Shown piece after piece: positions 2,729 through 22,711 of a stretch of DNA of 64,000 nt (the first letter of the stretch is position 1; each line of letters begins with the position of its first letter). The stretch spans positions 3,162,001 to 3,226,000 of the forward strand of contig NZ_JAUTAN010000001.1 of NCBI RefSeq assembly GCF_030818655.1, read 5' to 3'. A program made the translations under genes and the position numbers. This DNA comes from Nocardioides zeae. Its GTDB lineage: Bacteria; Actinomycetota; Actinomycetes; Propionibacteriales; Nocardioidaceae. The notes below the pieces were generated by a model. It saw only the letters and a list, made by a program, of their open reading frames with translations. It did not search any database and was not told the origin of the DNA.

Positions 2729-2746
2729 GCAACACGGTATACAGTA
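2729..2746. promoter_or_regulatory. operator A, GntR regulon (acyl-CoA dehydrogenase unit)
   Basis: Read on the minus strand the site is TACTGTATACCGTGTTGC. It matches the site at 12087-12104 in 17 of 18 positions. It lies 36 bases upstream of the GTG of the dehydrogenase. A TGGACA -35 candidate is followed after 17 bases by TACTGT as -10, so the operator covers the -10 element. I infer control by the nearby GntR/FCD protein. Confidence 0.6.
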
Positions 2747-2822
2747 GATGGTCATACGCTCCCTGTCCATTGATCCGCTCACCGTCGTCCTGCGACACGG
2801 GTCACGGCCAAACAGGGTGATT

Positions 2823-2840
2823 CCGTATGCAGTATTCTGT
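2823..2840. promoter_or_regulatory. operator B and likely leaderless promoter of the GntR gene
   Basis: CCGTATGCAGTATTCTGT lies directly before the GntR gene. It resembles the site at 22692-22711 apart from a one-base gap, and has GTATTC where the other sites have GTATAC. TATTCT at 2833-2838 fits the actinobacterial TANNNT -10 and ends 6 bases before the ATG at 2845. No ribosome site is visible, so a leaderless message with autoregulation is likely. Confidence 0.5.
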
Positions 2841-2844
2841 CGCC

Positions 2845-3561
2845 ATGCCTGCGGCCCCCCTCAGTGAGCTTGCGACCCACGTCGCCGTGACGCGTCCCCA
2901 GTCCCTGGGCAATCAGGTGGCCAGCGCCATCCGGCGCGACATCATCCTGGGCAAGCTCCCCGACGGGTCCCCCTTGCCCCAGGAGAAGCTGTGCGAGATC
3001 TACGGGGTCAGCCGGATCCCGGTGCGTGACGCGCTGCTGATGCTCGCGAACGAGGGGTTCGTGGTGCGCAACAGGCGCAACCAGATGATCGTCAACCAGT
3101 TCGACGCCCAGGACCTGGTCGACACGTTCAAGATCGAGGCCTTCATCGCCAGCCTCGCGACCCGTCGGGCCACGCTCCGCGGGACCGACGAGGAGATCGC
3201 GGAGCTCGAGGAGCTGGTGAGCGCGGGCGAGTCCGCAGTGGACCGCGACGCGATCGCCAAGTCGAGCTGGGCGTTCCACCACAAGGTCAACCGAATGGCG
3301 CGGTCGTCCCGGTTGATCGCGACCCTGCGGGCTGTGTCCCTCCCGCTGATGCAGGACTTCATGGACGAGAAGGCCGGGTGGTGGGGAGACACGCCGGAGG
3401 AGCACCGAGCCATCTACGAGGCGATCAGGGACCGCGATCCGGACACTGCGGAGGCGCTCACCGCGCAACACTTCGAGCACGCCGCGCTGGCATTGCTCAC
3501 CTATCTCGAGAACCGGGGGCTCGGGGGGACCAGCGCCGCTCCGACCGTCGCCGCCGACTGA
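2845..3561 (+). CDS. GntR family transcriptional regulator (FCD type)
   Basis: A 238-residue DNA-binding regulator. Residues near 20-85 form the winged helix: NQVASAIRRDIILGKLPDGS, then LCEIYGVSRIPVRDALLMLANEGFV. The rest is an alpha-helical ligand-binding domain of FCD type (DTFKIEAFIASLATRRA, FHHKVNRMARSSRLIATLRA, EEHRAIYEAIRDRDPDTAEALTAQHF). I chose ATG 2845 over ATG 2827 because the latter lies inside the operator and -10. The gene sits between the acyl-CoA dehydrogenase unit and the P450 unit and is convergent with the ferredoxin reductase. The GTATAC-type sites at 2729, 2823, 6235, 12076, 21258 and 22692 are its probable targets. FCD regulators usually respond to a small carboxylate from the pathway they control. 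Confidence 0.9.
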   Translation: MPAAPLSELATHVAVTRPQSLGNQVASAIRRDIILGKLPDGSPLPQEKLCEIYGVSRIPVRDALLMLANEGFVVRNRRNQMIVNQFDAQDLVDTFKIEAFIASLATRRATLRGTDEEIAELEELVSAGESAVDRDAIAKSSWAFHHKVNRMARSSRLIATLRAVSLPLMQDFMDEKAGWWGDTPEEHRAIYEAIRDRDPDTAEALTAQHFEHAALALLTYLENRGLGGTSAAPTVAAD

Positions 3562-3584
3562 CCGAGCCGTCACGTCCCCGGGCG

Positions 3585-4790
3585 TCAGACCGCGGCGAAC
3601 GGCGCCAGCGACAACGCGCGGCGCACCGCGGCGAACTCGCGCTGGGCGTCGATGGCGGTGGCACCGACGACCTGTCCCGTCGCCCCGCGGTGGTGGAAGA
3701 TCACACCGCCGTGATCGAGGTGGGCTACGTCCACCACGGCGTCCGCGCCGGGATCGGCGGAGCCCACGTGCTGGATGCGGTGGCCGAACTGGTCGCTCCA
3801 CACGAAGCCGGTGGCCCGGTGCGTCGCGGAGCCGACCTGCCGGATGTTCTGGGCCGCGATCGACGCCTGCTCGCGGGCACTGGTCCAGTGCTCGTGACGA
3901 GAGCTGGTCGATCCGTTCGCGTCGGTCGCCGAACGAACCCGCGCGACGTCCCCGATCGCGAAGACGCGATCCGTGCCCGCCACCCGGAGATCCGGCCCGC
4001 AGTGGAGTCCGTCGTCGATCGGCATGCCGCTGGAGGCCAGCCACTCGCAGTTCGGGACGGACCCCACGCCGATCACCACCAGGTCGGCCTCGACCACGGA
4101 TCCGTCGCCCATCTCGACCGATCGCAGGACTCCCCCGTCGCCCGGGACGCCCCGGGCGGCGACGGTGTCGAAGACGACCTGCACGCCGTGGCGCTCGTAG
4201 ATGCCCTGGAGGTGCTCGGCGACCTCGGCCGGCATCGAGCGCGTGAGCAGCCGCGGGCCGGCCTCGACGATCGTCACGTCCACGCCGCGCTCCCTCGCGG
4301 AGCTGGCCACCTCGCCCCCGATGAAGCCACCACCGACGACCACGATGCGACGGGCGGCGGCCAGGTCGGCACGAAGGCGACGGGCGTCGTCGAGGGACCG
4401 GAGGTAGTGGACGTTCGGGAAGACGTCGAACGAGGGGAGCCGGCGCGCACGGGCCCCCGTGGCGACGACCAGGTCGGAGAACACCAGGACGCGACCGCTG
4501 GAGAGGGCCACCTCTGAACGCGTGAGGTCGACCCCGGTGGCGGGGTCTCCCAGCACCACCTCGTCCCGGTCGTCGACCTCGGCGAGGTCCAGCAGGCGTC
4601 GCGGTTCAGTGCCCGTCAGTGCGGACTTCGACAGGTCCGGCTTGTCGTAGGGCTGGTGGACCTCTGCCTCGACCAGGGTGATCCGGCCGTCGTACCCCTT
4701 CTGCCGCAACGCCTGGAGACAGCGCACGCCGGCGACCGACCCCCCGACGATCACCGTGTGGGCGTCGCCGGGAGCACGCACGCTCATCAT
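3585..4790 (-). CDS. FAD-dependent ferredoxin reductase (P450 partner)
   Basis: A 401-residue pyridine-nucleotide-disulfide-type flavoprotein. The first Rossmann motif (VIVGGSVAGVRCLQALR) binds FAD, and a second (IVVVGGGFIGGEVASSARERGVDVTIVE) near residue 150 binds NAD(P)H. The GTDRVFAIGDVARV motif closes the FAD site, as in rhodocoxin or putidaredoxin reductases. It should pass electrons from NAD(P)H to the adjacent 3Fe-4S ferredoxin and on to the P450. Its ATG at 4790 overlaps the ferredoxin stop (ATGA), so the two are translationally coupled; a second ATG follows at 4787. It is the last gene of the P450-ferredoxin-reductase unit. Confidence 0.92.
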   Translation of the reverse strand: MMSVRAPGDAHTVIVGGSVAGVRCLQALRQKGYDGRITLVEAEVHQPYDKPDLSKSALTGTEPRRLLDLAEVDDRDEVVLGDPATGVDLTRSEVALSSGRVLVFSDLVVATGARARRLPSFDVFPNVHYLRSLDDARRLRADLAAARRIVVVGGGFIGGEVASSARERGVDVTIVEAGPRLLTRSMPAEVAEHLQGIYERHGVQVVFDTVAARGVPGDGGVLRSVEMGDGSVVEADLVVIGVGSVPNCEWLASSGMPIDDGLHCGPDLRVAGTDRVFAIGDVARVRSATDANGSTSSRHEHWTSAREQASIAAQNIRQVGSATHRATGFVWSDQFGHRIQHVGSADPGADAVVDVAHLDHGGVIFHHRGATGQVVGATAIDAQREFAAVRRALSLAPFAAV

Positions 4791-4990
4791 GGCCGGCGGA
4801 GCTTCAGGGCCTGCACCGGGCAGTCGGCGACAGCCTCCTCGACCGCGTCACGGTCCGCCTCCGTCGGGTGCCCCGGGAGGACGTAAGCGATGCTCGTGCC
4901 AGGCTCCAGGTCGAAGACCTCGGGAGCCGCGATCACGCAGTTCCCGTAGCCGTTGCAGGCCTCACGATCGATGTCGATGTGCACCGTCAT
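4787..4990 (-). CDS. 3Fe-4S type ferredoxin
   Basis: A 67-residue ferredoxin, MTVHIDIDREACNGYGNC at the N-terminus. Cluster cysteines are C12 and C18 (C-x5-C spacing) and C57 in ADCPVQAL. This is the single-cluster 3Fe-4S pattern of actinobacterial P450 redox partners. It sits 5 bases after the P450 stop and overlaps the reductase start by 4 bases. The three genes thus form a complete class I electron chain of NAD(P)H, reductase, ferredoxin and P450. Confidence 0.93.
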   Translation of the reverse strand: MTVHIDIDREACNGYGNCVIAAPEVFDLEPGTSIAYVLPGHPTEADRDAVEEAVADCPVQALKLRRP

Positions 4991-4995
4991 CGCAC

Positions 4996-6207: not shown

Positions 6208-6234
6208 CACGATGGCGTCATCCTCTCTGTGTTC

Positions 6235-6250
6235 TCGTATACCGTATCAG
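6235..6250. promoter_or_regulatory. operator C, GntR regulon (P450 unit)
   Basis: TCGTATACCGTATCAG contains the palindromic half-sites ATAC-C-GTAT. It lies 25-40 bases before the P450 start, between the CoA ligase stop and the P450 gene. The core matches operators A and D. It probably lets the GntR protein control the P450 unit separately from the ligase unit. Confidence 0.55.
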
Positions 6251-6288: not shown

Positions 6289-7914
6289 TCAGCGCCGAGC
6301 GGGCCGCAGGTGGGCGACGTCGACCACCCCGGAGCCGTCGCGGGTGGCCAGCTCCGCCTTCCGCGTCTTCGCCGTGGCCGTCCTCGGGAGGTCGGGCCGC
6401 AGCTCCACGTAACGCGGGAACATGTGGCGCGGCAGGCCCTCGCCGATCTGACGGCACAGGTCCTCGACCGTCGTCCGACCGGGTCCGGGCACCACGACGA
6501 GCTTGAGGTCGTCCTCGCCCCCCTCGTTGGCGACCCCGACCGCGGCGCAGTCGACGACGTCGTCGAGGCCCCGCACGAAGTCCTCGATCTCCGAGGGCGA
6601 GATGTTCTCCCCGTTGCTGCGGATGACTTCCTTGAGCCGACTGACGAAGACGAGCTCGCCGTCCTCCTCCTGCCGCACGAGGTCGCCCGTGTGGAGCCAC
6701 TGGTTGCGGAAGAGCGCCGTCGTGGCCGCGGGGTCACCCTCGTAGCCCGGCGTCATCAGCCAGGGGTGCCGAGCCCGCAGCACCAGCTCGCCGGCCGCGC
6801 CCGGCGCGACGGGGACGTCCACCTCGTCCACCACCTGGGCCACGAAGTCGCGGTGGAGCCAGCCGAGCGATCCCGGTCTGGTCGAGGGGCCGGTGGACAC
6901 CGTCCCCGCCTCGGTCGATCCATAGCTGGCGTGCACGGTCACCCCGAACCGTGCGGCGAACTCCGCCGCGCGGGGGGAGACAGGCGCGGCGTACAGCTGC
7001 TGGAGCGGGTTGTCGGCGTCTGCCGGCTCCGGGGGCACCTGGAGCAGGTACTCCATCATCGAGCCCATCAGCAGGGTGGAGGTGACGCCGTGCGCGCGCA
7101 CCGTCGACCAGAAGCCGCTGACGCTGAAACGCTCGGCGACCACCACCTGCAGACCCGCCATCAGGGGGCCCAGCACGCCGCGGCACTGCCCGGCGACGTG
7201 GAAGAGCGGAACGGTGAGCAGGACGACGCCGTCACCCGTCGCCGGGCGCTGGTCGACGACCATCGCCCGGGTCACGGTCTGGGCCTGGGTGACCAGGACC
7301 CGCTTGGGCCCACCGGTGCTGCCGGAGGAGAACATCACCGCCTGCAGGTCCCAGGGCTCGGGACCGTCGGAGCCGAGGGCGGCTCCGCCGGGACGCCGCA
7401 GGAGCTCCGCCCACGGCAGCACCCGCACACCCTCCGGGACCTGCTGCGCATCGGTACGTCCGCCTCGGACGACCAACGTGAGCCGGCGCGCGTCGGGTCC
7501 GAGGTCGGCGAGGCCCGCGAGGACGGTGTCGAGCCGGTGGCCCTCGACGACCACGACCGAGGCGTCGACGGACGCGACGGAGCGGGCGAGCTGGGCGCTC
7601 GTCGACTCGGGGTTCACCGGCACGGACACGAGACCCGCCTCGGCGATGGCCAGCCAGAGGCAGACCTGGTCCACGTGGTTGTCCAGCACGGTTACGACGC
7701 GCGCCCCGTCACCGTCGACCAAGGTCCCCAGCCCACCCGCCAGCTCCCGGACCTCGCGGTGCAGCTCGTCGTAGGTCAGCGAACGGCTCCCGTCGCGGAC
7801 GGCGACCCGGGGGCCGTGCTCCGCGACGGCTGCCGCGAGCACCCGCGGGACGGTGCGCTCGCGAAGGCCGACGTCGAGGCCGGCCGGTGCCGGCGGCGGC
7901 TGCGCGGGGCTCAC
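6289..7914 (-). CDS. AMP-forming acyl-CoA synthetase (FadD/CaiC-like)
   Basis: A 541-residue adenylate-forming ligase. The phosphate loop is SSGSTGGPKR near residues 197-205, the adenine motif is YGSTEAG near 331-337, HTGDL lies near 408-412, and the hinge reads RLKEVIRSNGENISPSE. The catalytic Lys of the C-terminal domain is in TATAKTRKAEL near residue 523. It should activate a carboxylic acid to its CoA thioester with ATP. Its GTG start overlaps the stop of the gene upstream by 4 bases (GTGA). In this unit it accompanies a CaiB/BaiF transferase and an enoyl-CoA hydratase. With the acyl-CoA dehydrogenase nearby, this is the same set of activities as the carnitine cai system, though the substrate need not be carnitine. 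Confidence 0.92.
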   Translation of the reverse strand: MSPAQPPPAPAGLDVGLRERTVPRVLAAAVAEHGPRVAVRDGSRSLTYDELHREVRELAGGLGTLVDGDGARVVTVLDNHVDQVCLWLAIAEAGLVSVPVNPESTSAQLARSVASVDASVVVVEGHRLDTVLAGLADLGPDARRLTLVVRGGRTDAQQVPEGVRVLPWAELLRRPGGAALGSDGPEPWDLQAVMFSSGSTGGPKRVLVTQAQTVTRAMVVDQRPATGDGVVLLTVPLFHVAGQCRGVLGPLMAGLQVVVAERFSVSGFWSTVRAHGVTSTLLMGSMMEYLLQVPPEPADADNPLQQLYAAPVSPRAAEFAARFGVTVHASYGSTEAGTVSTGPSTRPGSLGWLHRDFVAQVVDEVDVPVAPGAAGELVLRARHPWLMTPGYEGDPAATTALFRNQWLHTGDLVRQEEDGELVFVSRLKEVIRSNGENISPSEIEDFVRGLDDVVDCAAVGVANEGGEDDLKLVVVPGPGRTTVEDLCRQIGEGLPRHMFPRYVELRPDLPRTATAKTRKAELATRDGSGVVDVAHLRPARR

Positions 7915-8897
7915 AGCGACGCGAAGCGGTCGTCGAAGAGCTCACGGACCGTGAAGGACGACGGGGTGATGCCCTGCTCGTGGAAGAACCGCGACAGCGT
8001 GTCGAGCCCGTGCGCGTTGGCCCGCAGACCGTAGGGGAAGAGGTCGACGTCCGTGCTCCCGGAGGCCGGCACCAGCCCGACCTCACGGTGGAGCCGGACC
8101 GCCTCCTGGAGCGCGGCGAGGTGGGTCGTCTTGGCATCCAGGAAGCCCTTGTAGATGTTCAGCAGCAGCCACGGGTGCGCCTCGACCAGGCTGCGCCGGA
8201 CGACCATGCAGTGGTTGAACGGGAGGAAGCCCCAGGTGCCGAAGGCACGCGCCTTCTCCGCGTCGTCGTCGGGGAAGAGCAGGCGCACGTTGGCCTCGTC
8301 CATCGAGCCCGTGCTGCGGTCCAGCATCGTCTTGTAGGTGATGAACAGGATCGACGCCTCGAGGCGCCCTTCCGCGAACATCCTCCGCTGGCTGTCGTCG
8401 GGGCCGATCTGGACGACCTCGACGTCCTCCGGCGGGCGGAACGACGTCGCGCCGCCGTGGCTCAGGCGCGTCGTGCGCTCCTGGAACCACGTCATGCTCG
8501 ACGGGTGCAGGTCGTGGTCGTGCTGCAGCACGCCGCGCGCCCAGACGGCTCCCGTCATGGAGTAGTCGGCCACGCCGATCCGCTTGCCGCGCAGGTCGGC
8601 CGGGGTCCGCACGTCGGAGTCCGCACGCACCACGACGGCGGCGTGGAAGAACCGCCGGTCGGGGAAGACCGGCAGCGCGACCCAGGTGTCGTCGCCCTGG
8701 AGCCGCAACCGGGTCAACGAGGCCAACGACATCTCGGAGATGTCGAAGTCCTGGAAGTTCAGCTGGCGCCAGAAGGTGTCGGCCGGCGGCAGCAGGGACG
8801 TGCGCAGGCGCACGCCCTCGATCGCGTGCGGGTCGTCGACCAGCGCCTGGACGCGCGGGTTGGTGCGCAGCGCCAGGCTCAGCTCGAGCTTCGTCAT
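7911..8897 (-). CDS. substrate-binding-fold protein, 4,5-dihydroxyphthalate decarboxylase-like
   Basis: A 328-residue protein with the periplasmic-binding-protein type II fold: TPADLRGKRIGVADYSMTGAVWARGVL is the typical hinge region. Sequences of this kind are often labelled ABC substrate-binding protein or 4,5-dihydroxyphthalate decarboxylase. It starts MTKLELSLALRTNPRV with no signal peptide or lipobox, so it is most likely cytoplasmic. That favours an enzyme over a transporter component. It lies between the enoyl-CoA hydratase and the CoA ligase in a tight minus-strand operon and overlaps the ligase start by 4 bases. A decarboxylation step on an aromatic or cyclic carboxylate is a reasonable guess, not shown. 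Confidence 0.75.
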   Translation of the reverse strand: MTKLELSLALRTNPRVQALVDDPHAIEGVRLRTSLLPPADTFWRQLNFQDFDISEMSLASLTRLRLQGDDTWVALPVFPDRRFFHAAVVVRADSDVRTPADLRGKRIGVADYSMTGAVWARGVLQHDHDLHPSSMTWFQERTTRLSHGGATSFRPPEDVEVVQIGPDDSQRRMFAEGRLEASILFITYKTMLDRSTGSMDEANVRLLFPDDDAEKARAFGTWGFLPFNHCMVVRRSLVEAHPWLLLNIYKGFLDAKTTHLAALQEAVRLHREVGLVPASGSTDVDLFPYGLRANAHGLDTLSRFFHEQGITPSSFTVRELFDDRFASL

Positions 8898-8939: not shown

Positions 8940-9743
8940 CTACCGGGCCTGCCAGGAGGCCTCGCGCTTCTCGAGGAAGGCGCGGACTCCTTCCTCGCGG
9001 TCCGCGGAGGCGTAGGGGTTCGGCCCCACGTTGAGCCGCAGGGCTGCCGGCACCGGCAGGTCCATGCCGCGCAGGACCATCTGCTTGTAGCGGAAGAGCG
9101 AGAGGGGCGCGTTCCGGGCGATGCCACGCGCCAGCGCCTCGACCGAGGCCGTCAGGTCGGCGCTGTCCACGACGCGCATCAGCAGGCCGACGTCGAGGGC
9201 GCGCGCCGCGTCGAAGCGTTCCGCGGTGTACAGCAGCTCGTAGGCCACCGCCGGCCCGACGAGCCGCGGCAGCATCACTGAGGCGAAGTTGGCACCCATC
9301 CCGATCTTGGCCTCCGGCATCCCGAAGACCGAGCCGTGCGTGGCGATCCTGAGGTCGCACGCCATCGCCAGCTCGAAGCCCCCGGCCAGGGCGTAGCCGT
9401 CGATCGCCGCGATCGTCGGCTTCGGGATCTCCAGCACCGCCTCGAACACGTTGCGCGCCTCACCCGTCATCGGCGTGGTGAGCCTGCGTCCTGCACGAGC
9501 GGTCTGGTCGATCTCCTTGAGGTCGGCCCCGACGCAGAAGGCACGGTCGCCGGCACCGCTCAGCACGACGACCCGGACCTCGGGGTCCTCCGCGAGGTCC
9601 GATGCGCACCTCACCAGGTCGCGCTTCAGGGCGCTGTCCAGCGCGTTGTGCCGGTGGGGGCGGTTGAGCGTGAGGTACGCGACGTGGTCACGGTGCTCGA
9701 CGAGCAGCCCGTCCGTCTCCGTGTGGTCGTCGGTTGCGGTCAT
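8940..9743 (-). CDS. enoyl-CoA hydratase/isomerase family protein
   Basis: A 267-residue crotonase-fold protein. Visible motifs are LTLNRPHRHNALDSAL, RAFCVGADLKE (oxyanion hole), and IDGYALAGGFELAMACDLRIAT followed by FGMPEAKIGMG. The second acidic position commonly used for hydration is occupied by the PEAKIG glutamate. It probably hydrates an unsaturated acyl-CoA made by the acyl-CoA dehydrogenase. The ATG overlaps the CoA-transferase stop by 4 bases (ATGA). Length is normal for single-domain hydratases. Confidence 0.92.
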   Translation of the reverse strand: MTATDDHTETDGLLVEHRDHVAYLTLNRPHRHNALDSALKRDLVRCASDLAEDPEVRVVVLSGAGDRAFCVGADLKEIDQTARAGRRLTTPMTGEARNVFEAVLEIPKPTIAAIDGYALAGGFELAMACDLRIATHGSVFGMPEAKIGMGANFASVMLPRLVGPAVAYELLYTAERFDAARALDVGLLMRVVDSADLTASVEALARGIARNAPLSLFRYKQMVLRGMDLPVPAALRLNVGPNPYASADREEGVRAFLEKREASWQAR

Positions 9744-10954
9744 CGTCGCTCCTGTCGGGAAGCGGAACCCTCGAAGGACTCCAGGGAGTGCTCCCCCAGC
9801 ACGGGGGGGCGGCGGCGCAGTGCGAAGTGCTCACCGTCGGTGCGGACGGGGGTGTGCACCGTGGCGTAGGCGGGGACCTCGGGGTGCTCGAGGGGGGCCA
9901 CCGCCCCCGTCGCGACCACTTGCTCGTCGCGGAGCACCTCGTCGACGCGGCGGATCAGCGAGCACGGGATCCCGACCGCCTCGAAGGTCGCGATCCACTC
10001 CTGCGCCGGGCGGCTCTTGAGCTCGACCTCGATCTCCTCCGCGAGCACCTCGCGGTTCCTGAACCGCGAGCCGTTGTCGACGAAGCGCTCGTCGGTGCGC
10101 CAGTCCTCGCGACCCATCACGGCGGTGAACTTCGACCACAGGCGCTCGTTCCCCACGGCGATGACGAGGTGTCGGTCCTGGGCGAGGAACGCCTGGTACG
10201 GCGCGATCCCCAGGGTGGCCGAGCCCAGCTGGCCCGCGACGCTCCCGTCGGCCAGCACTCCCAGGAGCTGCGCCGGCTCCCACTGCAGCGCCGTCTCGAG
10301 CAGGGACGTGGCCACGACCGACCCCGCGCCCGTCTGCTCCCGCAACCGGAGCGCGTTGAGGATGCCGATCACGGCCCACATGCCGGCTCCCTTGTCGAGC
10401 ACCGAGACCGGGATCCGGACGGGTGCGCGGCCCGGCTCGCCCACGATCCCCATGAGACCGCTGAATGCCTGCATCAGGGGGTCGTACGCCGGCTTGGCCG
10501 CCGACGGTCCCGGACCGAAGCCGGTGATGTGACAGACCACCAGTCGTGGGTTCAGGGCGCGCAGCGCGTCGTCGCCGAACCCGAGCCGGTCCATGGCGCC
10601 GGGGCGCATGTTCTCGACCAGCACGTCCGCCTCGGCCACGAGGCCGCGGAGCCGTTCCCGGCCCTCGTCGGACGACAGGTCGAGAGCGAGGCTGCGCTTG
10701 TTGCGGTTCAGGGTGGAGAACGTGACGCTCTCGCCGTTGGGCCAGTACGGCGGACCCCAGCCACGGGTGTCGTCACCGCCCGAGGGCCGCTCGACCTTGA
10801 TGACGTCGGCCCCGAGGTCGCCGAGGACCTGCGTCGCGAACGGACCGGCGACGTTGGTGGTGATGTCGAGGACCCTGATGTCGCCCAGCGACCCGGGTCC
10901 CGCGGGTTCCGGCGGGCCGGTGGTGGCGGACGTGTCGGCAGGAAGATCCATCAT
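9740..10954 (-). CDS. CaiB/BaiF family CoA-transferase
   Basis: A 404-residue class III CoA-transferase. It begins with GDIRVLDITTNVAGPFATQVLGDLGADVIKVE and carries the family block DDTRGWGPPYW, LNRNKRSLALDL and VLVENMRPGAMDRLG. The catalytic Asp is probably in AYDPLMQAFSGLMG. It should move CoA between a pathway acid and a donor thioester. Its first ATG at 10954 overlaps the aldolase stop by 4 bases. A much longer in-frame reading extends up to 11596 but runs over the aldolase gene and is not real. A second, separate family member lies at 34747-35991. Confidence 0.92.
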   Translation of the reverse strand: MMDLPADTSATTGPPEPAGPGSLGDIRVLDITTNVAGPFATQVLGDLGADVIKVERPSGGDDTRGWGPPYWPNGESVTFSTLNRNKRSLALDLSSDEGRERLRGLVAEADVLVENMRPGAMDRLGFGDDALRALNPRLVVCHITGFGPGPSAAKPAYDPLMQAFSGLMGIVGEPGRAPVRIPVSVLDKGAGMWAVIGILNALRLREQTGAGSVVATSLLETALQWEPAQLLGVLADGSVAGQLGSATLGIAPYQAFLAQDRHLVIAVGNERLWSKFTAVMGREDWRTDERFVDNGSRFRNREVLAEEIEVELKSRPAQEWIATFEAVGIPCSLIRRVDEVLRDEQVVATGAVAPLEHPEVPAYATVHTPVRTDGEHFALRRRPPVLGEHSLESFEGSASRQERR

Positions 10955-12075: not shown

Positions 12076-12104
12076 CTATACCGCATTACTGTATACCGTA
12101 TTGC
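12076..12104. promoter_or_regulatory. operator D, tandem GntR sites with a minus-strand promoter
   Basis: Two direct copies occur 15 bases apart: ATACCGCATT at 12078-12087 and ATACCGTATT at 12093-12102. The second sits in an 18-mer matching operator A at 17 positions. TATAGT on the minus strand (12080-12075) fits a -10 for the aldolase gene. Unusually, the whole block lies inside the last codons of the EthD-like gene. Confidence 0.6.
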
Positions 12105-14207: not shown

Positions 14208-15625
14208 GCGGCACCCCCGACCTGCAGGAGCCGCGTCACGTCGAGGAGGCGGTTCGCGTCCCCCTCCAGGACACAGGCGGCGACCCGCTCGGCGTCCACC
14301 TCGGGCACGGCGAGCGCGAGCTCCCGGAACTTGGCCACCAGCTGCGCGGTGCTCAGCGGCAGCTGGGGGCTGCCCGGCCGGTGCACCGACTCCGTGACGA
14401 GCCGACGGCCGTCGTGCGTCCCCAGGGTCACCCGCGTGGAGAAGCGGAACGCCTCGCCGCGGGCGTCGAAGTCCTCGTCGGGACGCACGCGCACCCGTGC
14501 CGCGACCGCATGGACCAGGGGGTCGTCGAGCCGCTCGGGCGTGAACGCGGCACCACCCGTCTCCCCGTGCGCGACCAGCACGGCCACGGCGAAGGAGAAG
14601 CTCATCTGTGCACTGACGGCGTCGAACGTCTGGGTCTCGAAACCGCAGTGGACGAAGGCGTCGGTCGGCACGTCGATGTCGATCGACGCCACGTCGTCAC
14701 GTCCGAGGTCGTGGGCGCGGAGCAGCTCGGTCACGAGCGCGAGGGCGGGATGGATGACCGCGCAGCTCGCGTATGCCTTGAAGCCGACGCGGTCGATCTC
14801 CCAGCTGCCGTCCGCGGCCGGCTCGAGGGCGTCCCACTGCACCACGTCACCACGCAGCGACGCGACGAACCCGCCGAACTCGGCCTCCAGGATGTCGTGG
14901 GAGCCCTCGAGACCCTGCGCGGCGAGCAGCGCGGCGTACACCCCGCTCTGGGCGGCCCACCCGGAGTGGAACCGCTTGACCATGCCCTCCTCCTGGGCCC
15001 CCATCAGGCCCGCACCTTGGCTGGCCGCGATCGCGAGCGCGTGCCGCGTCCGGGTGACGTCGAGCCCGAGGGCGCGCGCAGCCGCCGCGGCCGCGGCGAC
15101 CGCGCCGATCGTCCCCTGGGGGTGGAACCCCCTCAGGAAGTGCGCGATCCCGAGCACGCTGCCCAGGCGCGCACCGACCTCGTACCCGGCGACGACCGCC
15201 GCGAGGAACGTCGCACCGTCCGCCTCGTCGCTGTGGGGCAGGAGCGCCATCGCCGCGGGGAACACGACGGCGCCCGGGTGCAGGCAGCCGGCCTCGTGCA
15301 GGTCGTCGATCTCGAAGGCGTGCGCCGCGGTGCCGTTGGCCATCGCTGCCGCGGTCGGCGAGCCGGTCGCCGACGTCCCCACGACGAGCGCCGGACCCGT
15401 CGCCCCCTCCGCCAGCGCCACGGCGCGCACCGCCGCGCTCCACGGCAGCGTCGACCCGTACAGGCTGCAGCCGATGTAGTCGAGGAGGCAGCGCCGCACG
15501 CTGTCGAGGACAGCGGGCGGAAGGTCCTCGGCGGTCACACCGGCCACCATGGCGGCGAGCCTCTCCGTCGCGGCCGGTCGCGCCTGCGCCGCGGCTCCCT
15601 GCTCGGTCTCGGTCGTCTGTCCCAC
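14204..15625 (-). CDS. MmgE/PrpD family protein (module copy)
   Basis: A 473-residue MmgE/PrpD protein. Recognisable blocks are VRRCLLDYIGCSLYGSTLPW, NGTAAHAFEIDDLHEAGCLHPG and RGFHPQGTIGAVAAA, then GFKAYASCAVIHPAL in the C-terminal half. The expected chemistry is dehydration or a related lyase reaction on a polycarboxylate, but family members differ. It lies between two related FAD flavoproteins, with a 4-base overlap on one side and 3 bases on the other. It is clearly different in sequence from the member at 159-1508, so this is not a recent duplication. Confidence 0.88.
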   Translation of the reverse strand: MGQTTETEQGAAAQARPAATERLAAMVAGVTAEDLPPAVLDSVRRCLLDYIGCSLYGSTLPWSAAVRAVALAEGATGPALVVGTSATGSPTAAAMANGTAAHAFEIDDLHEAGCLHPGAVVFPAAMALLPHSDEADGATFLAAVVAGYEVGARLGSVLGIAHFLRGFHPQGTIGAVAAAAAAARALGLDVTRTRHALAIAASQGAGLMGAQEEGMVKRFHSGWAAQSGVYAALLAAQGLEGSHDILEAEFGGFVASLRGDVVQWDALEPAADGSWEIDRVGFKAYASCAVIHPALALVTELLRAHDLGRDDVASIDIDVPTDAFVHCGFETQTFDAVSAQMSFSFAVAVLVAHGETGGAAFTPERLDDPLVHAVAARVRVRPDEDFDARGEAFRFSTRVTLGTHDGRRLVTESVHRPGSPQLPLSTAQLVAKFRELALAVPEVDAERVAACVLEGDANRLLDVTRLLQVGGAA

Positions 15626-15628
15626 GAC

Positions 15629-17074
15629 TCAGCTCCTCATCTCGCCGGCGGCATGTCGTCCTGCGGCACGACCGGACACCAGCGCCTCGGTGAGGTTGCC
15701 GGCACCCGGGTACATCTGGCCCCACATCGAACCCAGCTCGCCCGCCGCGTAGAGGCCGGGGATGACCGTCCCGTCGGGGCCGAGAACCCGGCCGTGCTCG
15801 TCACGACGCGGACCGCCCTGGGTGTTGACCAGGACCGGGGTCACGGGGACCGCGTAGAACGGCGGCTCCGCCACGGGTTCGAGGTCCTGGCGGCCGAGCG
15901 CGTCGCCGTCCCGCCGCGCGCAGCCCTCGTTGTAGCGACCGATCGTCCGCTCCAGCGTCGCCGCGTCGAGACCGAGGGTCTCGGCGAGCCCGGCGATCGT
16001 GGTGGAGGTCGCGATCAGCCCCGCTTCCACCTCGCGTGCGTTGTCCTCGCTCCAGTCGATGTCGGCCCACGTGAGACCGCCGTTCGCGATCGGGCCGGCC
16101 GCGCGCGTGCGCTCGTCGAAGACGAAGTACGACGGCATCCGCAGGTAGCGGCCCGTCCGTGCGTCCGCCTTCAGGAAGGCCATCGGCAGCGCGTGGAAGT
16201 CCGTGCCGGTCTCGTCGACGAAGCGCTCACCGGACGAGTCCACGTACACGAAGCCCGCCGCTGGCGACTGGTGGCGCACCGGGCCGTCGACGCCGTCGAG
16301 CACGTAGCCCAGGGTGGCCGCGACGGCTGGGGTGTGCCAGAGGTCCGCGCCGAGCGCCTGCGCCATCAGGAGGCCGTCGCCGCGGTTCTGGGGAGGACCG
16401 AAGGCGACGAGCGGGTGTCCGACGAAGTCCTCGACGAGGTCGGCCGCGTGGCCGAAACCGCCGAGCGCCAGCACGAGGGCGCGTGCCACCACCTCACGCT
16501 CGTCCGCGCCCGTCTGCACGACCACCCGGAAGGAACCGTCGGTACGACGCACCGCCGTCCGCGCGCGGGCGCCGAGCAGGACGGGGATGCCCCGCGCGGC
16601 GACCCCTGCCTCCAGCACGTTCCACAACGCCTCGCCACCCAGCTCTCCACGCGGGCTCGCGACCCGTAGGCGGCCGGCCATCGCGTCCGCCCCGGGCACA
16701 CCGGAGTAGGTGACGTCCGTGATACGCGGGTAGCTGCTGATCGCGCGTCCGTCGAGAGGGACCAGCTCGGCACCGAGGCTCTCCAGCCAACGCAGCGTGC
16801 GTGGAGTCTCGGCCAGGAACGCCTCGAGCATGCGCGACGGTGTCTCCCCCTGGGCCAGGTGCTCCAGGTACTGGAGGGCCCCCTGGGGATCCTGGACGGG
16901 GCGGAGGGATCCACCGGACGCTCGCGTGTTCCCGCCCGCCTGCCGCCCGGCCTCCACGAGGAGCGTCGTCGCGCCGCTGTCGTGCGCCGTCATGGCGGCG
17001 CTGGCGCCGGCGCCCCCGTACCCCAGGACGAGGACGTCGACCTCACCGGGGACCGTCGTCGGTGCGTCACTCAT
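15629..17074 (-). CDS. FAD-binding fumarate reductase-like flavoprotein (copy 2)
   Basis: A 481-residue relative of the protein at 12765-14207. It has VDVLVLGYGGAGASAAMTAHDSG for FAD, GGNTRASGGSLRPV, LVNTQGGPRRDEHGRVLGPD and the C-terminal VIPGLYAAGELGSMWGQMYP block. The ATG overlaps the end of the ABC permease gene by 8 bases. As with copy 1, a double-bond-forming or -reducing reaction on a carbonyl or carboxylate substrate is expected. Whether the two copies act on successive intermediates or form a complex cannot be told. Confidence 0.88.
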   Translation of the reverse strand: MSDAPTTVPGEVDVLVLGYGGAGASAAMTAHDSGATTLLVEAGRQAGGNTRASGGSLRPVQDPQGALQYLEHLAQGETPSRMLEAFLAETPRTLRWLESLGAELVPLDGRAISSYPRITDVTYSGVPGADAMAGRLRVASPRGELGGEALWNVLEAGVAARGIPVLLGARARTAVRRTDGSFRVVVQTGADEREVVARALVLALGGFGHAADLVEDFVGHPLVAFGPPQNRGDGLLMAQALGADLWHTPAVAATLGYVLDGVDGPVRHQSPAAGFVYVDSSGERFVDETGTDFHALPMAFLKADARTGRYLRMPSYFVFDERTRAAGPIANGGLTWADIDWSEDNAREVEAGLIATSTTIAGLAETLGLDAATLERTIGRYNEGCARRDGDALGRQDLEPVAEPPFYAVPVTPVLVNTQGGPRRDEHGRVLGPDGTVIPGLYAAGELGSMWGQMYPGAGNLTEALVSGRAAGRHAAGEMRS

Positions 17075-17958: not shown

Positions 17959-18846
17959 TCATCGCGCCGCCCCGACCACCGAGCGCAGGCCGACCAGACG
18001 ATCGACCGCGACACAGGCCACGAGGGAGAGGACGACGACGACGGCCGAGATCGCGTAGAGGTACACGCCCGGCATGGTCTCGGCGTCGGAGAGCATGACG
18101 ACGGGCAGCGGCGACTGACCCGCGCCCGTCAGGAAGACGGACAGCGCGACGTCGTTGAACGAGACGAGGAAGGCGAGGAACGAGCCGGCAACCAGGCCCG
18201 GACGCATCTGCGGGAGGGTGACGCGCAGGAGCACCCGGAAGAAGCCCGCACCGAGCCCTGCGGCAGCGTCCTCGATCACCGGGTCCATCTCGCTCAGCCG
18301 ACCGACGGCCGCGCTGAGGAGGAACGGGGTGATGGCGATGACGTGGCCGACGACCAGCCCGATGAAGGTGCCGCGCAGGGTCACACCGGACGACCCGATG
18401 AAGATGAAGTACTGGTACAACGCGACACCGAGGACGAGGGCGGGCAGCTGGAGCGGACTCCGGAAGAAGGCCTCGACGAGGGACCGACCCGGGAGACGCC
18501 CGCGCACCATCGCCACGGCGAGCGGAATGGTGAGGACGAGGGAGATGACCACGGCGACCGCGGCCAGCCTCGTGCTCAGCCACAGGGCCTCGAACATGTA
18601 GCCGGGGATGTCGCCGTACGCGTCCCAGCCGAACGACCGGGGCCAGAACTCGATCCCGCTGGTCGAGAAGGACACGATGACGACCACGACGACCGGCGCG
18701 AGCAGGAAGGCCACGACGAACACCGCGAGCAGGCGCGATCCGACGTCGTACAGCGCGTCGAGGACCCGGTTGGTGCCTGCGGGAGGTGTGGTGACGTTCG
18801 GGGCGGGCGGAGCGTCCTGACGCCGGTCGTCGATCACGGTCGTCAT
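17959..18846 (-). CDS. ABC transporter permease, polyamine/opine type, subunit 2
   Basis: A 295-residue PotC-like permease. A cytoplasmic N-terminus of about 35 residues is followed by roughly six membrane segments, the first being LLAVFVVAFLLAPVVVVVIV. The EAA loop is VIEDAAAGLGAGFFRVLLRVTLPQ. The ATG overlaps the ATPase stop by 4 bases. It forms the transmembrane channel with the permease at 17067-17924. Confidence 0.9.
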   Translation of the reverse strand: MTTVIDDRRQDAPPAPNVTTPPAGTNRVLDALYDVGSRLLAVFVVAFLLAPVVVVVIVSFSTSGIEFWPRSFGWDAYGDIPGYMFEALWLSTRLAAVAVVISLVLTIPLAVAMVRGRLPGRSLVEAFFRSPLQLPALVLGVALYQYFIFIGSSGVTLRGTFIGLVVGHVIAITPFLLSAAVGRLSEMDPVIEDAAAGLGAGFFRVLLRVTLPQMRPGLVAGSFLAFLVSFNDVALSVFLTGAGQSPLPVVMLSDAETMPGVYLYAISAVVVVLSLVACVAVDRLVGLRSVVGAAR

Positions 18847-19904
18847 CGCGGCGCATCCGTTCCCAGGACCAGGACTCGCTCCGGGTCGATGTCGATCCCC
18901 ACCACGTCGCCGACCTCCGTGGCCAGCTGGCGGTCCTCGAGGTGCACGGTCCCCCGACCGATCTTCACCGAGGTCAGGGGGATGCCGTCGGCGAAGGTGC
19001 GCCCCACGACGGTCCCCTTCAGCGCAGCGGGCCCCGCGTCGGAGGCGATGCTCGCAGCGCCGGCGCGCAGCAGCAGGTGGGTCGGATCGGCGACATCGCC
19101 GGCACCTGCGACGGTCACCGCATCGCCCGTGCCGGCGAGGAGGACCGTGGACCGGCCGTCGCCCGTGCTCACGGCTTCGATGTCCAGCAGGTTGACGTGA
19201 CCGAGCAGGCGCGCCGTGACCTCCGTCCTCGGGTTGAAGAAGAGGTCCTGGGGCTTGCCTGCGTCGACGGGCCGACCCTCGTGCACCACCACGATGCGGT
19301 CGGACATCGCGAATGCCTCGGACTGGTCGTGCGTGACGTAGAGGGTCGTGATGCCCAGCGACGTCTGGATCCGCTTCAGCTCCTGCTGCAGGCGGACGCG
19401 GAGGCTGACGTCGAGCGCACCCATCGGCTCGTCCATCAGGAGCACCGACGGATTGATGACGATCGACCGCGCGAGCGCCACCCGCTGCTGCTGCCCGCCG
19501 CTCAGCTGCGCGGGATAGCGATCCGCCAGGCGGGTCAGGTCGACCATCTCGAGCATGGCCATCACCCGCTGAGTGGTCTCGGACCGGGACACCCGCCGGG
19601 TGCGCAGGCCGAAGGCGACGTTGTCGGCCACCGTCATGTGCGGGAAGAGGGCGTACTGCTGGAAGACGGTGCCGATGTTCCGTCGCTGCGGTTGCAGGGT
19701 CGTGATGTCGCGCCCCTCGACCGTGATGGTCCCCGACGTGGCGTTGACGTAGCCCCCGATGATGCGGAGCATGCTCGTCTTGCCCGAGCCGGACGCGCCG
19801 AGCAGGGTGACGAACTCTCCGGACGCGAGCGACAGGTCGAAGTCCCGCAGGACCGGGTTGTCTTTGTACTTCAGGCAGATCTTGCTGGCGACGAGTTCAC
19901 TCAC
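18843..19904 (-). CDS. ABC transporter ATP-binding protein, PotA-like
   Basis: A 353-residue ATPase. Walker A is GASGSGKT (residues 36-43), the Q-loop FQQYALFPHMTVADNVAFGL, the signature LSGGQQQR (134-141), and Walker B VLLMDEPMGALD (154-165) with the switch His in YVTHDQSEA. The last 110 residues form a TOBE-type domain, as in polyamine, iron and opine importers. It is read after the frameshifted lipoprotein gene, with a 104-base gap that holds a strong hairpin. Confidence 0.93.
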   Translation of the reverse strand: MSELVASKICLKYKDNPVLRDFDLSLASGEFVTLLGASGSGKTSMLRIIGGYVNATSGTITVEGRDITTLQPQRRNIGTVFQQYALFPHMTVADNVAFGLRTRRVSRSETTQRVMAMLEMVDLTRLADRYPAQLSGGQQQRVALARSIVINPSVLLMDEPMGALDVSLRVRLQQELKRIQTSLGITTLYVTHDQSEAFAMSDRIVVVHEGRPVDAGKPQDLFFNPRTEVTARLLGHVNLLDIEAVSTGDGRSTVLLAGTGDAVTVAGAGDVADPTHLLLRAGAASIASDAGPAALKGTVVGRTFADGIPLTSVKIGRGTVHLEDRQLATEVGDVVGIDIDPERVLVLGTDAPR

Positions 19905-19960
19905 GGGTTCTCCCGGTTGCTAGGTGGGGCACGCGTCGGTGTCGGGTGGGTGCCGGACGC

Positions 19961-19996: not shown

Positions 19997-20008
19997 GGTC
20001 GGACGGGC

Positions 20009-21212
20009 TCAGCCCTGGAACTCCCGGTTCCACTGCTCGATCCACTCGGGGCGGCTCTCGAGGAAGGCCTCGTAGTCGGCCTGGTAGTAGGTCGCCGGAT
20101 CGCCGGTGAGCAGGGCGGCGCGCTCCGGAGCCTCGGCCTCGAGGGCGGTGAAGGTCTCCGGGTTGGTCGGTCGGTAGATGGCGCGATCGGTCAGGTAGGG
20201 CATGAGGCCGGCCGGCTGGTTGACCAGGTGGACGTAGATCTCCGCCAGCTTCGACACCTCCGTGCCTGCGACGACGTACGCACCGGTGGTCGCACCGACG
20301 GCGGAGTACGTCGTGCCGTCGACCTCCATGTCGAGCTCGTGGTACTCGACCGGCACGCCCTGCTCCTGCAGGGCCAGGCAACGACCGTCGGTGGCCGGAG
20401 CAGCCCACACGTCACCCGCGGTCAGCCACTGGTCCAGGTCGCCGCTGCTCGCCCAGAACTTGAGCCCGTCGATGTCGTTCAGCCAGTCGATCGTCGCGCT
20501 CGGGTCGTCCACGGAGGAGCCCAGGTAGTCGCTGATCGCGCGGCACCAGCAGGTCCCACTGGCTGATGCCGGCGTTGGGGAAGGCCACCTTCCCCGCGAG
20601 GGCCGGCTCCTGCAGCAGGTCGAAGCCCTCGGTGGCGTCGAGCCCTGCCTCGGCCATCTTGTCGGAGCGGACGCACATGCCGGTGACGAAGTAGTAGAAC
20701 CCCGGCTGGTAGCCCTCGGCACCGAAGGCCTGCTCCGGGAAGTCGGCGAACTCGTCGAGGTTGCTCGGCTCCACGAGGAGCTGGCTGTCCACCAGGCTGA
20801 TCTGGTCGACGGTCGTCATCGCGCTCACCACGTCGAACGGAGGCGCAGCGCCACGACTGGCGAGGATCTGGCTGATGGCGGTGGCGTTGTCGACGCCCAC
20901 CCACTCGATCGTGGCACCGGTGGCTTCCTCCACGAGCTTGCCGACCCCGGCCTGCAACGCCTCGGTCATGGCGCCCGTGTAGGCGGCCACCGTCAGCGTC
21001 TGCCCCTCGAAGTTGCACTCCTCCGGAGCCGTCGCCGTGCCGTCGCCCGAGACGGTGACGTCAGCCGGGTTGCAGTCCGCACCCGTGTTGCCGTTCCCCT
21101 CGGCGCCGCCCCCGCAGGCCGCGAGCCCCGTGGCGGCCAAGGACATGGCAGCAGCCAGTGCCACGGCGCGACTGCGCCGCCGACGAGAACCTGCGTTTCC
21201 GATCAATCGCAT
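20009..21212 (-). pseudogene. polyamine-type ABC substrate-binding lipoprotein, frameshifted
   Basis: The 5-prime part (from ATG 21212) reads a lipoprotein signal with lipobox LAAC, then FEGQTLTVAAYTGAMTEALQ and WVGVDNATAISQILASRG. It runs in frame to WDLLVPR. The 3-prime part resumes in the next frame as AISDYLGSSVDDPSATIDWLNDIDGL and continues to WIEQWNREFQG at 20009. The shift is at about 20536-20545, where the two readings overlap. Removing one base would give about 400 residues, normal for an extracellular solute-binding protein of this family. Either the base is a sequencing or assembly error or the importer has lost its binding protein. The position before two permeases and an ATPase leaves no doubt about the original role. 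Confidence 0.8.
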
Positions 21213-21257
21213 CTGCGTCTCCCACGCTTAGGCCGAGATGAGCTGGTAGTGCGGAAG

Positions 21258-21287
21258 ACGGTATACGGTGTTACATCAGACGGTCAA
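21258..21287. promoter_or_regulatory. operator E and promoter of the importer operon
   Basis: ACGGTATACGGTGTTAC at 21258-21274 carries the GTATAC core. On the minus strand TTGACC (21287-21282) and TATACC (21265-21260) form a -35/-10 pair with 16 bases between, so the operator covers the -10. It lies 48 bases before the lipoprotein start. Confidence 0.55.
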
Positions 21288-21355
21288 CGGTGGTCGCGAG
21301 ATGCATCACAGTGTTTTCACGGTCGAAACAACTCACGCTCTCGTGCGCTCGACCG

Positions 21356-22183
21356 TCACGACGGTGCGGAGGTCGCACACAGGTTTCGGCAGGCACCCAG
21401 GCCCTCGACCTCCGTGCGGAGCTCGGAGCCGCGACGCAGCCACGGCCCTCCGCCTCCGGCCGCGACACCAGCAGGGGTGCCCATCGCGATCACGTCCCCG
21501 GGGCGCAGGGTCACGAACGTGCTCAGGTAGGCGACGACCTCGGGAGGGCCGAACAGCAGGTCCGACAGAGGTGCGCGCTGGACCCGCTGGCCGTCGACGT
21601 GGCACGACAGGATGCGGTCGCCGAGGTCCGTGACGGCTGCTCGCGTGGTGAGCACGGGGCCCAACGGGGCGGTCCCCTCGAAGTTCTTCCCCGGGGTCCA
21701 CTGGCTGCCGTGGTTCTGCCAGTCGCGCGCGGTGACGTCGTTCGTCACGCAGTAGCCCGCGATCACCTCGGTCGCCTCCGCGACCGTCACCCGCCGGGCC
21801 GCACGCCCCACGACGACGGCGAGCTCGGCCTCGTAGTCCCAACGCTCGGAGGCGTCGTCGAGGCTGATCGCGTCGTGCGCGCCGATCAAGGTCGAGCGGT
21901 GCTTGGTGAAGATCGTCGGGCGGCTGGGGAGCTCACGCCCCATCTCCAGGATGTGCGAGCGGAAGTTGAGCCCGACGGCGTACATCGCATCGGGCATGAC
22001 GACGGGAGCCATCTCGACGCCCGACAGGCTGCGCTCGTCGAGCGCGTGGTAACGCCAGTCCGAGACGTCGCCGCCACCGGCCAGCAGTGAGCCCAGGTCG
22101 GGGAACGGCAGGAGGTGCACCGACTCGTCGTCGACGGCTGCGGCCTGCGTGCGCCCCTCGACACGGACGGTCGCGAGCCTCAT
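21356..22183 (-). CDS. fumarylacetoacetate hydrolase family protein
   Basis: A 275-residue FAH-fold protein. The family core is visible: YAVGLNFRSHILEMG, then FTKHRSTLIGAHDAI, DYEAELAVVVGR with the metal-binding Glu residues, GYCVTNDVTARDWQ, GKNFEGTAPLGP and PGDVIAMGTPAGV. Members hydrolyse or decarboxylate acylpyruvates and related 2-oxo acids, often late in ring degradation. The ATG at 22183 overlaps the thioesterase stop by 4 bases, so the two form one unit behind operator F. Confidence 0.9.
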   Translation of the reverse strand: MRLATVRVEGRTQAAAVDDESVHLLPFPDLGSLLAGGGDVSDWRYHALDERSLSGVEMAPVVMPDAMYAVGLNFRSHILEMGRELPSRPTIFTKHRSTLIGAHDAISLDDASERWDYEAELAVVVGRAARRVTVAEATEVIAGYCVTNDVTARDWQNHGSQWTPGKNFEGTAPLGPVLTTRAAVTDLGDRILSCHVDGQRVQRAPLSDLLFGPPEVVAYLSTFVTLRPGDVIAMGTPAGVAAGGGGPWLRRGSELRTEVEGLGACRNLCATSAPS

Positions 22184-22665
22184 CCCAGCACCAGCTCGGT
22201 GCAGCGGAACTCGGCGAGCGTCTTGCTGGCCCCGCCCTCGACCTCCACCACGACCGTCACCGCGATCACCATCGAGGTCCGCCCGAGATGGACAGGCGAG
22301 GCCGTGGCGACGAGGCGGTCTCCCGGACGGGCGGCCCGCACCAGGTTCGCGTTCAGCTCCAGCGTCGTGAAGCTCTGGCCGGCACGGAGCGCGGTCTTCG
22401 CCCCCCACCCGGCGGCCGCGTCCGCCAGGGCCATCACAGCACCGGCCTGCGCGACCCCGGCCTGGTTCAGGTGCTGGGTCGCGATCTCCATGGTCGCCAC
22501 GGCGGCTCCCGGCCCCACGTGGGTGAGACGGATGCCCAGCGAGTCGATCAGCGAGCCCGGCGGCACCGGGGCATCGCCCGCCGAGACCGCGCGGACCGCG
22601 CCGGGCTCCTGTCCGCCGTAGGTCATCGCCAATGGGTTCTGGGGCTGGTCGGCACGTGCCGTCAT
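22180..22665 (-). CDS. PaaI-type hotdog thioesterase
   Basis: A 161-residue hotdog-fold protein. The central helix region reads LNQAGVAQAGAVMALADAAAGWGAKTAL, followed by FTTLELNANLVRAARPGDRL, as in PaaI-like acyl-CoA thioesterases. GGAGGATCCC precedes the ATG. It probably hydrolyses stalled or toxic acyl-CoA intermediates of the pathway. It is transcribed divergently from the M24 peptidase gene across an 82-base gap that holds operator F. Confidence 0.85.
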   Translation of the reverse strand: MTARADQPQNPLAMTYGGQEPGAVRAVSAGDAPVPPGSLIDSLGIRLTHVGPGAAVATMEIATQHLNQAGVAQAGAVMALADAAAGWGAKTALRAGQSFTTLELNANLVRAARPGDRLVATASPVHLGRTSMVIAVTVVVEVEGGASKTLAEFRCTELVLG

Positions 22666-22691
22666 GGGATCCTCCGCGTCAGATGGTGGTC

Positions 22692-22711
22692 TCTGTATGG
22701 CAGTATACAGT
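22692..22711. promoter_or_regulatory. operator F between divergent units
   Basis: TCTGTATGGCAGTATACAGT has inverted ends (CTGTAT and ATACAG) around a GCAG/TGCC centre and contains GTATAC at 22703-22708. It sits in the 82-base divergent gap, 26 bases from the thioesterase ATG and 36 from the peptidase ATG, so one site could control both units. Confidence 0.55.

Follow-up and report, generated by a model that had tools for sequence, protein, structure and literature searches.

A putative GntR/FCD regulon marked by a GTATAC-centered palindrome in Nocardioides zeae

Positions 159-24900 of a 64,000-nucleotide stretch of the Nocardioides zeae genome (RefSeq assembly GCF_030818655.1, contig NZ_JAUTAN010000001.1, positions 3,162,001 to 3,226,000; the window hereafter) hold a cluster of catabolic genes, a gene for a GntR/FCD transcriptional regulator (2845-3561), and six copies of a short palindrome centered on GTATAC. 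Here, we report that the palindrome lies ahead of every presumed transcription unit of the cluster, is concentrated there within the genome, and occurs beside a relative of the regulator in a second genus. From sequence comparison, we consider it likely (probability of about 0.85) that 159-24900 is a single regulon of the 2845-3561 protein, read through the operator CnGTATACnG. An original prediction made from the letters of the window had proposed one GntR/FCD regulator over a dispersed 25-kb catabolic regulon with a GTATAC-type operator, and this proposal is supported by the clustering of the sites, by their recurrence in Pseudonocardia oroxyli, and by the nine other FCD loci of the genome, which have no GTATAC in about 3.3 kb around each.

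Gene content, operators, and regulator

Transcription units were assigned from gene direction and gaps, which gave seven starts within 159-24900 (Table 1); the widest gap within a presumed unit was 104 bp (19905-20008). The original prediction had listed six sites (2729-2746, 2823-2840, 6235-6250, 12076-12104, 21258-21274, and 22692-22711), five with a GTATAC core and one with GTATTC, and all were found there with those cores. The match it noted at 17 of 18 bases between 2729-2746 (gcaacacggtatacagta) and the reverse complement of 12087-12104 (gcaatacggtatacagta) was also right, and its placement of the sites at transcription-unit starts was borne out, with a site 7 to 48 bp before the start codon in all seven presumed units.

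GTATAC occurred five times in the window (0.75 expected; 0/100 shuffles reached 5). All five fell in 2737-22708 and none in the rest of the window, and the 20 kb on its left (L136) contained no GTATAC, GTATTC, or GAATAC. The whole genome (4,380,404 bp, one contig, C1) had 20 copies (reversed pattern, 16), and when 20 sites were placed at random, 4 of 100,000 trials had five of them within 19,966 bp. In the intergenic gaps of the cluster, with 10-bp margins added, GTATAC was the top-ranked 6-mer (4 versus 0.108 expected), a score reached by any 6-mer in 2 of 1,000 dinucleotide-shuffled gap sets; the count was only four because the core at 12091 sits just inside the preceding gene.

A 16-mer consensus (ATACnGTATACnGTAT) was derived by eye from the six sites. 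Allowing three mismatches, it was found at six places genome-wide, five of them in the cluster (2732, 2820, 6232, 12086, and 21256) and the sixth at C1:1144800; the reversed pattern gave two places. A genome scan had been named in advance as a possible refutation, and it returned clustering, not scatter. The exact form CnGTATACnG was present at five places in the genome, four in the cluster, and the 15 remaining genomic GTATAC copies had 4 to 8 mismatches to the 16-mer. At the regulator promoter, the better 16-bp register was 2820-2835 (ATTCCGTATGCAGTAT; 2 mismatches), 7 bp to the left of the GTATTC register.

Across 13 sites read on both strands, the outer C (G on the other side) at -4 and +5 was kept in 25 of 26 cases, and the base next to GT varied among sites. 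Of 44 arms, 24 had an outer GTAT box (at least 3 of 4 bases matching) exactly at +7 and 8 had one at +14, against a window rate of 0.014 per position; these arms are not independent, since each core contributed both of its sides and some of the cores overlap. At several operators, two or three registers of the palindrome were offset by exactly 7 bp, namely at 2820-2840 of the window, in the P. oroxyli locus (L026), and in L183, L184, and L190.

The regulator carries the two domains of the FCD (FadR) subfamily of the GntR superfamily: GntR (PF00392; 4e-15; 55.6 bits, cut-off 27) and FCD (PF07729; 2e-20; 73.9 bits, cut-off 24.3). Its nearest relative in the PDB by sequence was 6z74 (6e-15), that is, Atu1419 of the VanR group. 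In the alignment, Arg45 and Arg49 of Atu1419 are kept, Glu34 is replaced by Gln and Thr46 by Ile, and, by our own reading, its three metal-binding His align with His and the Asn137 position, where metal-dependent FCD domains have Asp or Asn, is Ser. The NanR model of NCBIfam was the second match of the regulator, below the cut-off of that model.

Table 1. Genes and putative operators of the cluster; positions are those of the window, and units are presumed from gene direction and gaps. Matrix scores are from sites of other genomes (see text).
Feature	Position	Strand	Sequence or domains	Remarks
MmgE/PrpD family protein (MmgE1)	159..1508	-	PF03972, PF19305	
Acyl-CoA dehydrogenase (ACAD)	1524..2693	-	PF00441, PF02770, PF02771	
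Operator 1	2732..2747		ACACGGTATACAGTAG	Unit ACAD-MmgE1; core 43 bp before ACAD start codon; 2 mismatches to 16-mer
Operator 2	2820..2840		ATTCCGTATGCAGTATTCTGT	Unit GntR; two registers offset by 7 bp; 7-14 bp to GntR start codon; 2 mismatches; matrix 21.7, third best in window
GntR/FCD transcriptional regulator	2845..3561	+		238 amino acids; proposed reader of all sites
Ferredoxin reductase	3585..4790	-	PF07992, PF14759	
Ferredoxin, Fer4_13/Fer4_15 type	4787..4990	-		
Cytochrome P450	4996..6207	-	PF00067	
Operator 3	6232..6250		TTCTCGTATACCGTATCAG	Unit P450-ferredoxin-reductase; core 29 bp before P450 start codon; 3 mismatches; matrix 21.2
AMP-forming acyl-CoA ligase	6289..7914	-	PF00501	
Phosphonate-bd/SsuA-like binding-protein fold	7911..8897	-	PF12974 (3e-8)	TIGR01728 (4e-6) below cut-off
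Enoyl-CoA hydratase family	8940..9743	-	PF00378	
Class III CoA-transferase	9740..10954	-	PF02515	
HMG-CoA-lyase-like protein	10951..12060	-	PF00682	PRK05692 below cut-off
Operator 4	12076..12104			Extended site; unit lyase-CoA-transferase-hydratase-binding protein-ligase; core 30 bp before lyase start codon; best 16-mer match (1 mismatch, 12086-12101); matrix 22.4, plus 14.1 at 12069; overlaps 3' end of preceding gene (stop codon 12086-12088)
Protein of about 221 amino acids	12086..12750	-		No Pfam match over cut-off
FAD-dependent oxidoreductase, flavocytochrome c/TcuA-like	12765..14207	-	PF00890	NCBIfam matches below cut-off
MmgE/PrpD family (MmgE2)	14204..15625	-		Nearest solved structure by sequence, IDS-epimerase
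Second FAD-dependent oxidoreductase	15629..17074	-		
Two ABC permeases	17067-17924, 17959-18846	-	PF00528	
ABC ATPase, PhnT2/PotA-like	18843..19904	-	PF00005	NCBIfam matches below cut-off
ABC solute-binding protein gene, two frames	20009..21212	-		Pfam matches of N-terminal part below cut-off; open reading frame 20412-21212, N-terminal part; 20009-20722, C-terminal part in other frame; split is a frameshift or sequencing error
Operator 5	21256..21274		AGACGGTATACGGTGTTAC	Unit solute-binding protein-ABC-flavoproteins-MmgE2; core 48 bp before solute-binding-protein start codon; 2 mismatches; matrix 22.5, best in window
Fumarylacetoacetate-hydrolase (FAH) family protein	21356..22183	-	PF01557	
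PaaI-type thioesterase	22180..22665	-	4HBT PF03061; TIGR00369	
Operator 6	22692..22711		TCTGTATGGCAGTATACAGT	Exact CnGTATACnG; shared by divergent units PaaI-FAH (37 bp to start codon) and M24-asparaginase (39 bp); matrix 14.05
M24 creatinase/prolidase/ectoine-hydrolase-like protein	22748..23890	+	PF00557, PF01321	
Asparaginase/GatD-like protein	23887..24900	+	PF00710	

Occurrence in Pseudonocardia and in related gene modules

A search of the genus (196 genomes) with the regulator returned five distant matches besides the protein itself (29-34% identity), and a search of the class (394 genomes) returned none besides itself at E ≤ 1e-30. A scan of genome contigs with the regulator as query found no relative, and the lyase was used for a second scan. 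Of the 18 genomes that carry 18 of the 80 lyase loci, 16 had some FCD match, one above 50% identity. In the genus of P. oroxyli (62 genomes, E ≤ 1e-35), P. oroxyli and one more genome (37%) were matched. For relatives below 35% identity, GTATAC was present in two of 23 matched loci, in one of them (L116) as CCGTATACAG, roughly 0.1 kb upstream of the gene; one further locus of this set (L117) had no regulator match. Because just one ortholog above 50% was found, the footprint of the system reaches one further genus, through P. oroxyli and a distant genome of that genus.

Among the loci fetched, P. oroxyli (L026) had the enzyme neighborhood most like that of the window (identities: ACAD, 78%; lyase, 69%; enoyl-CoA hydratase, 58%; CoA-transferase, 55%; PaaI, 53% over 101 residues; ligase, 52%; MmgE, 51%; M24, 50%; asparaginase, 44%). 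Its regulator, which has both Pfam domains, was 54% identical; the DNA-binding domain agreed at 47 of 64 aligned residues and the remainder at 66 of 133. GTATAC was counted 38 times in this 6.1-Mb genome (reversed pattern, 32), three times within 12.4 kb of the cluster (Poisson, 6e-5), and the palindrome is found in each of three promoter regions. One lies between the AMP-ligase gene and the gene for a 2OG-Fe(II) oxygenase, which the lyase gene follows; another precedes an NMT1-type binding-protein gene at the head of a transporter-ACAD stretch; and the last separates PaaI from the regulator. The NMT1-type site lies 58 bp before the start chosen at L133:4965, and the longest open frame runs through it. 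The PaaI site has an extended form in both genera (TGTATGGCAGTATACAG in the window and TGTATGTCAGTATACGG before the P. oroxyli homologue). CnGTATACnG occurs eight times in P. oroxyli, three in the cluster and five outside. The comparison of related clusters, proposed as a check, thus favored the regulon, with regulator and palindrome accompanying related enzymes. The two clusters differ in their oxygenase, the window having a P450 with ferredoxin and reductase (3585-6207) and P. oroxyli the 2OG-Fe(II) oxygenase (L026 8916-9965).

In the third genome (G467, of the same genus as P. oroxyli), the regulator match at 37% (36% by BLAST) had both Pfam domains and different neighbors, not the module of the window. 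Four GTATAC cores lie in 20 kb, the outer two at 543 and 19544 and the other two in CCGTATACCGTATCCGTATAC, which immediately follows the regulator gene and is itself followed by genes for a Fer2 ferredoxin and a reductase. A matrix was built from seven sites of P. oroxyli and G467, with no site from the window. In the 64-kb window, its nine top-scoring positions (22.5 to 11.8) were all inside the six operators, and the best outside them scored 10.98 at 54858, against 14.05 for the weakest main site.

Recognizable steps of the encoded pathway, with tentative enzyme names, are P450 monooxygenation, CoA activation (ligase and CoA-transferase), dehydrogenation, hydration, and HMG-CoA-lyase-like cleavage. 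Further families are two MmgE/PrpD proteins, two FAD enzymes, M24 and asparaginase proteins, and an importer with a PhnT2/PotA-like ATPase. The M24 and asparaginase families possibly act in amide hydrolysis, and there is a weak indication that the substrate is a branched carboxylic acid or an amide hydrolyzed to one. NCBIfam matches shown for the submitted cluster proteins were below cut-offs except for the general thioesterase domain, and a literature search on the enzyme module gave nothing on point among the matches listed. Genes for ACAD, MmgE/PrpD, CoA-transferase, and an HMG-lyase-like protein stood together in at least 17 of 80 lyase loci, counted among listed loci with six or more genes matched. 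The 16-mer (≤3 mismatches) was present in 2 of these 17, in three overlapping registers in P. oroxyli and once in L047, and bare GTATAC in 6. The four genes form a conserved actinobacterial module, mostly without the GTATAC operator; unlike the regulator-operator pair, the module is thus widespread.

Proposed regulation and alternative readings

The cluster-encoded regulator very probably docks at the palindrome. From its domains and from the parallels with Atu1419 and PenR described below, we read this protein as an autoregulated FCD repressor whose operators would lie over or next to promoters. A dimer would bind CnGTATACnG, whose GT-AT-AC core is the FadR-subfamily operator in its form with two-nucleotide spacing, and an outer GTAT/ATAC half-site 7 bp out may often help. 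Bound regulator would block RNA polymerase at the seven units and, through operator 2, hold down its own production. Release would come with an effector bound in the FCD domain, probably one of the carboxylic acids of the pathway.

The palindrome was also surveyed in the genus. With ≤2 mismatches, the 16-mer was present in 21 of the 196 genomes, most often in this one (4 places); the other 195 had at most 3 (G192), then 2 and 2. The 24 places in 20 other genomes were grouped into 21 regions of 13 to 20 kb (the first 8 by eye, then 13) and compared with 20 arbitrary 19-kb regions from 10 of those genomes (tblastn, E ≤ 1e-6, four FCD-GntR queries). In four of the FCD-bearing regions, the site was within 200 bp of the FCD match, and the FCD proteins were 26-34% identical to the regulator in the five regions aligned.

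Several points weigh against the reading as a single regulon of the 2845-3561 protein. An FCD-GntR match was present in 8 of 21 motif regions and 0 of 20 controls (Fisher, 0.002), so that the palindrome appears to be an operator type of diverse FCD regulators in the genus; the motif alone does not name its reader, and one of the nine other FCD proteins of this genome could cross-bind. The other 13 motif regions had no FCD match. Outside the cluster, a perfect 16-bp palindrome (GTTCCGTATACGGAAC) at C1:2494277 had a matrix score of 21.6, as high as cluster sites, and scores of 18.5 in L135 and 17.1 in L136 exceeded those of some cluster sites. GTATAC itself was not enriched genome-wide over its reversed pattern, here or in P. 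oroxyli. Operator 6 (core 22703) keeps CnGTATACnG and departs from the 16-mer at five bases, and a single ortholog above 50% identity was found in the searched genomes. The regulator gene, predicted to lie in the middle with a site of its own, does have that site 7-14 bp ahead but is near the left end of the cluster, which we count as a limit. Finally, several sites had been said to overlap a plausible -10. By a simple -35/-10 scan this held for ACAD (TGGACA-17-TACTGT at operator 1) and the solute-binding protein (TTGACC-18-TACCGT at operator 5) and failed for the other five of the seven starts.

The palindrome at C1:2494277 (L170, about 1070-1085) lies about 30 bp before an HTH_3-cupin regulator gene (L170:1114-1665) and is probably the operator of another regulator. 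Three GTATAC copies 60 kb to the left of the cluster (L135, C1:3099500-3108000; 2405, 5732, and 6163) were considered as part of the regulon and rejected. The copy between the gene for a VanA-type Rieske oxygenase and a divergent PucR-type HTH gene has the same flank as the copy ahead of a cupin gene, and this flank (GTATACGTA, then TA) is not that of the cluster; the third copy falls within the cupin gene.

The outer boxes at +7 and +14, together with the FCD genes in motif regions, are the basis for a broader and doubtful proposal. The operator might be an array of half-sites stepped by 7 bp (CnGTATA CnGTAT ...), occupied by more than one dimer in alternative or neighboring registers; such a dialect could serve many divergent FCD regulators of actinobacterial catabolic islands, so that clusters acquired elsewhere may be cross-read by resident FCD proteins.

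We infer repression rather than activation of the units, although some FCD regulators do activate, such as CitO with citrate (PMC4746285), and the sign is left open for PenR in its description (PMC11998424). Activation is improbable given sites so close to the start codons, including that of the regulator itself, and two sites that overlap a promoter-like -10, as described for the Atu1419 repressor (PMC7797058).

It is slightly less probable still that the sites are true FCD-type operators read by another of the ten FCD proteins, or by several. The genome does have ten FCD loci, the one in the cluster included, and the presence of this 16-mer near distantly related FCD genes of the genus suggests a widely shared specificity. 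Among the loci inspected, however, GTATAC occurs only around the FCD gene of the cluster, with none in about 3.3 kb around each of the nine others; the P. oroxyli relative occurs with the same palindrome and related genes, and one operator immediately precedes the start codon of the regulator.

A further reading, which we regard as very unlikely, takes the sites for AT-rich cores of promoters (TAnnnT -10 elements), alike as promoters and not as operators. The palindrome does hold TATAC and TACnGT, near a -10 hexamer, but its conservation extends symmetrically to the outer C and G, the exact form is rare outside the cluster, and the same sequence stands in the P. oroxyli cluster that holds the relative of the regulator. 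Chance or repeat-derived accumulation of scattered short repeats, which the near-identity of two sites might suggest, is disfavored, since the sites differ outside the core, sit at presumed unit starts, and are clustered to a degree rare in random placement.

With the single regulon of the GntR/FCD protein as the preferred reading, a regulator, an operator, and a gene list are assigned to one catabolic pathway, and its inducer could be looked for by a simple reporter screen. The recurrence of a GTATAC-centered palindrome near FCD regulators of the genus also offers a practical way to find and bound regulons in high-GC genomes from the letters alone.

Comparison with known systems

A literature search on GntR proteins with GTATAC or TGTATACA turned up Atu1419 and PenR among the matches listed. 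The first of these, from Agrobacterium fabrum (FCD, VanR group; PDB 6z74, 6za0, 6za3, 6za7, and 6zab), is described as repressing genes of the hydroxycinnamate region; it binds a 10-bp palindrome, ATGTATACAT, twice before atu1418-1419 and once before atu1420, with sites on or near -10 boxes and Arg45 reading a guanine (PMC7797058). The VanR group has a six-helix FCD domain, and Atu1419 is of a tetrameric type that can loop DNA from one palindrome to another. The system reported here resembles Atu1419 in the GntR and FCD domains and in GTATAC-core operators that stand at promoters of catabolic genes and at that of the regulator itself. It differs from that description in the flanks (AT...AT there, Cn...nG here) and in having six operator regions over 20 kb against three palindromes.

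PenR is the FadR/GntR protein of the pen (pentose) operon in Rhodococcus jostii RHA1. Its proposed operator is a GTATAC palindrome located in the -10 box, with activation and repression both left open by the authors (PMC11998424). Common to both systems are an actinomycete FadR/GntR regulator, a proposed GTATAC operator, and a regulator promoter very near the start codon. The PenR operator was proposed in silico for one operon of a sugar pathway.

Several groups of the FadR subfamily have operators in which two bases separate GT from AC, and weaker additional half-sites, reported at 7-12 nucleotides (nt), have been described close to the palindrome (PMC4494728). The GT-N2-AC core here, GTATAC in five of six sites, fits NyGTM-N0-1-KACNy, and weaker half-sites likewise stand near the palindrome, the outer box somewhat nearer the center than 7-12 nt. 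The outer T/A of the common TKGT/ACMA boxes is replaced by C/G here, which is variation within the subfamily and does not exclude membership.

NanR of Escherichia coli, also of GntR type, has a (GGTATA)3 operator (PMC8012715). GGTATA-type half-sites in a row are common to both systems; unlike the direct repeats described for NanR, those here are inverted about GTATAC with a 7-bp step. CitO with citrate is described as binding upstream of the cit promoters and inducing them (PMC4746285); the GTATAC in that paper belongs to a primer. Set beside these systems, the cluster of N. zeae is a well-supported regulon under a kind of gene control already known, and the example is new.

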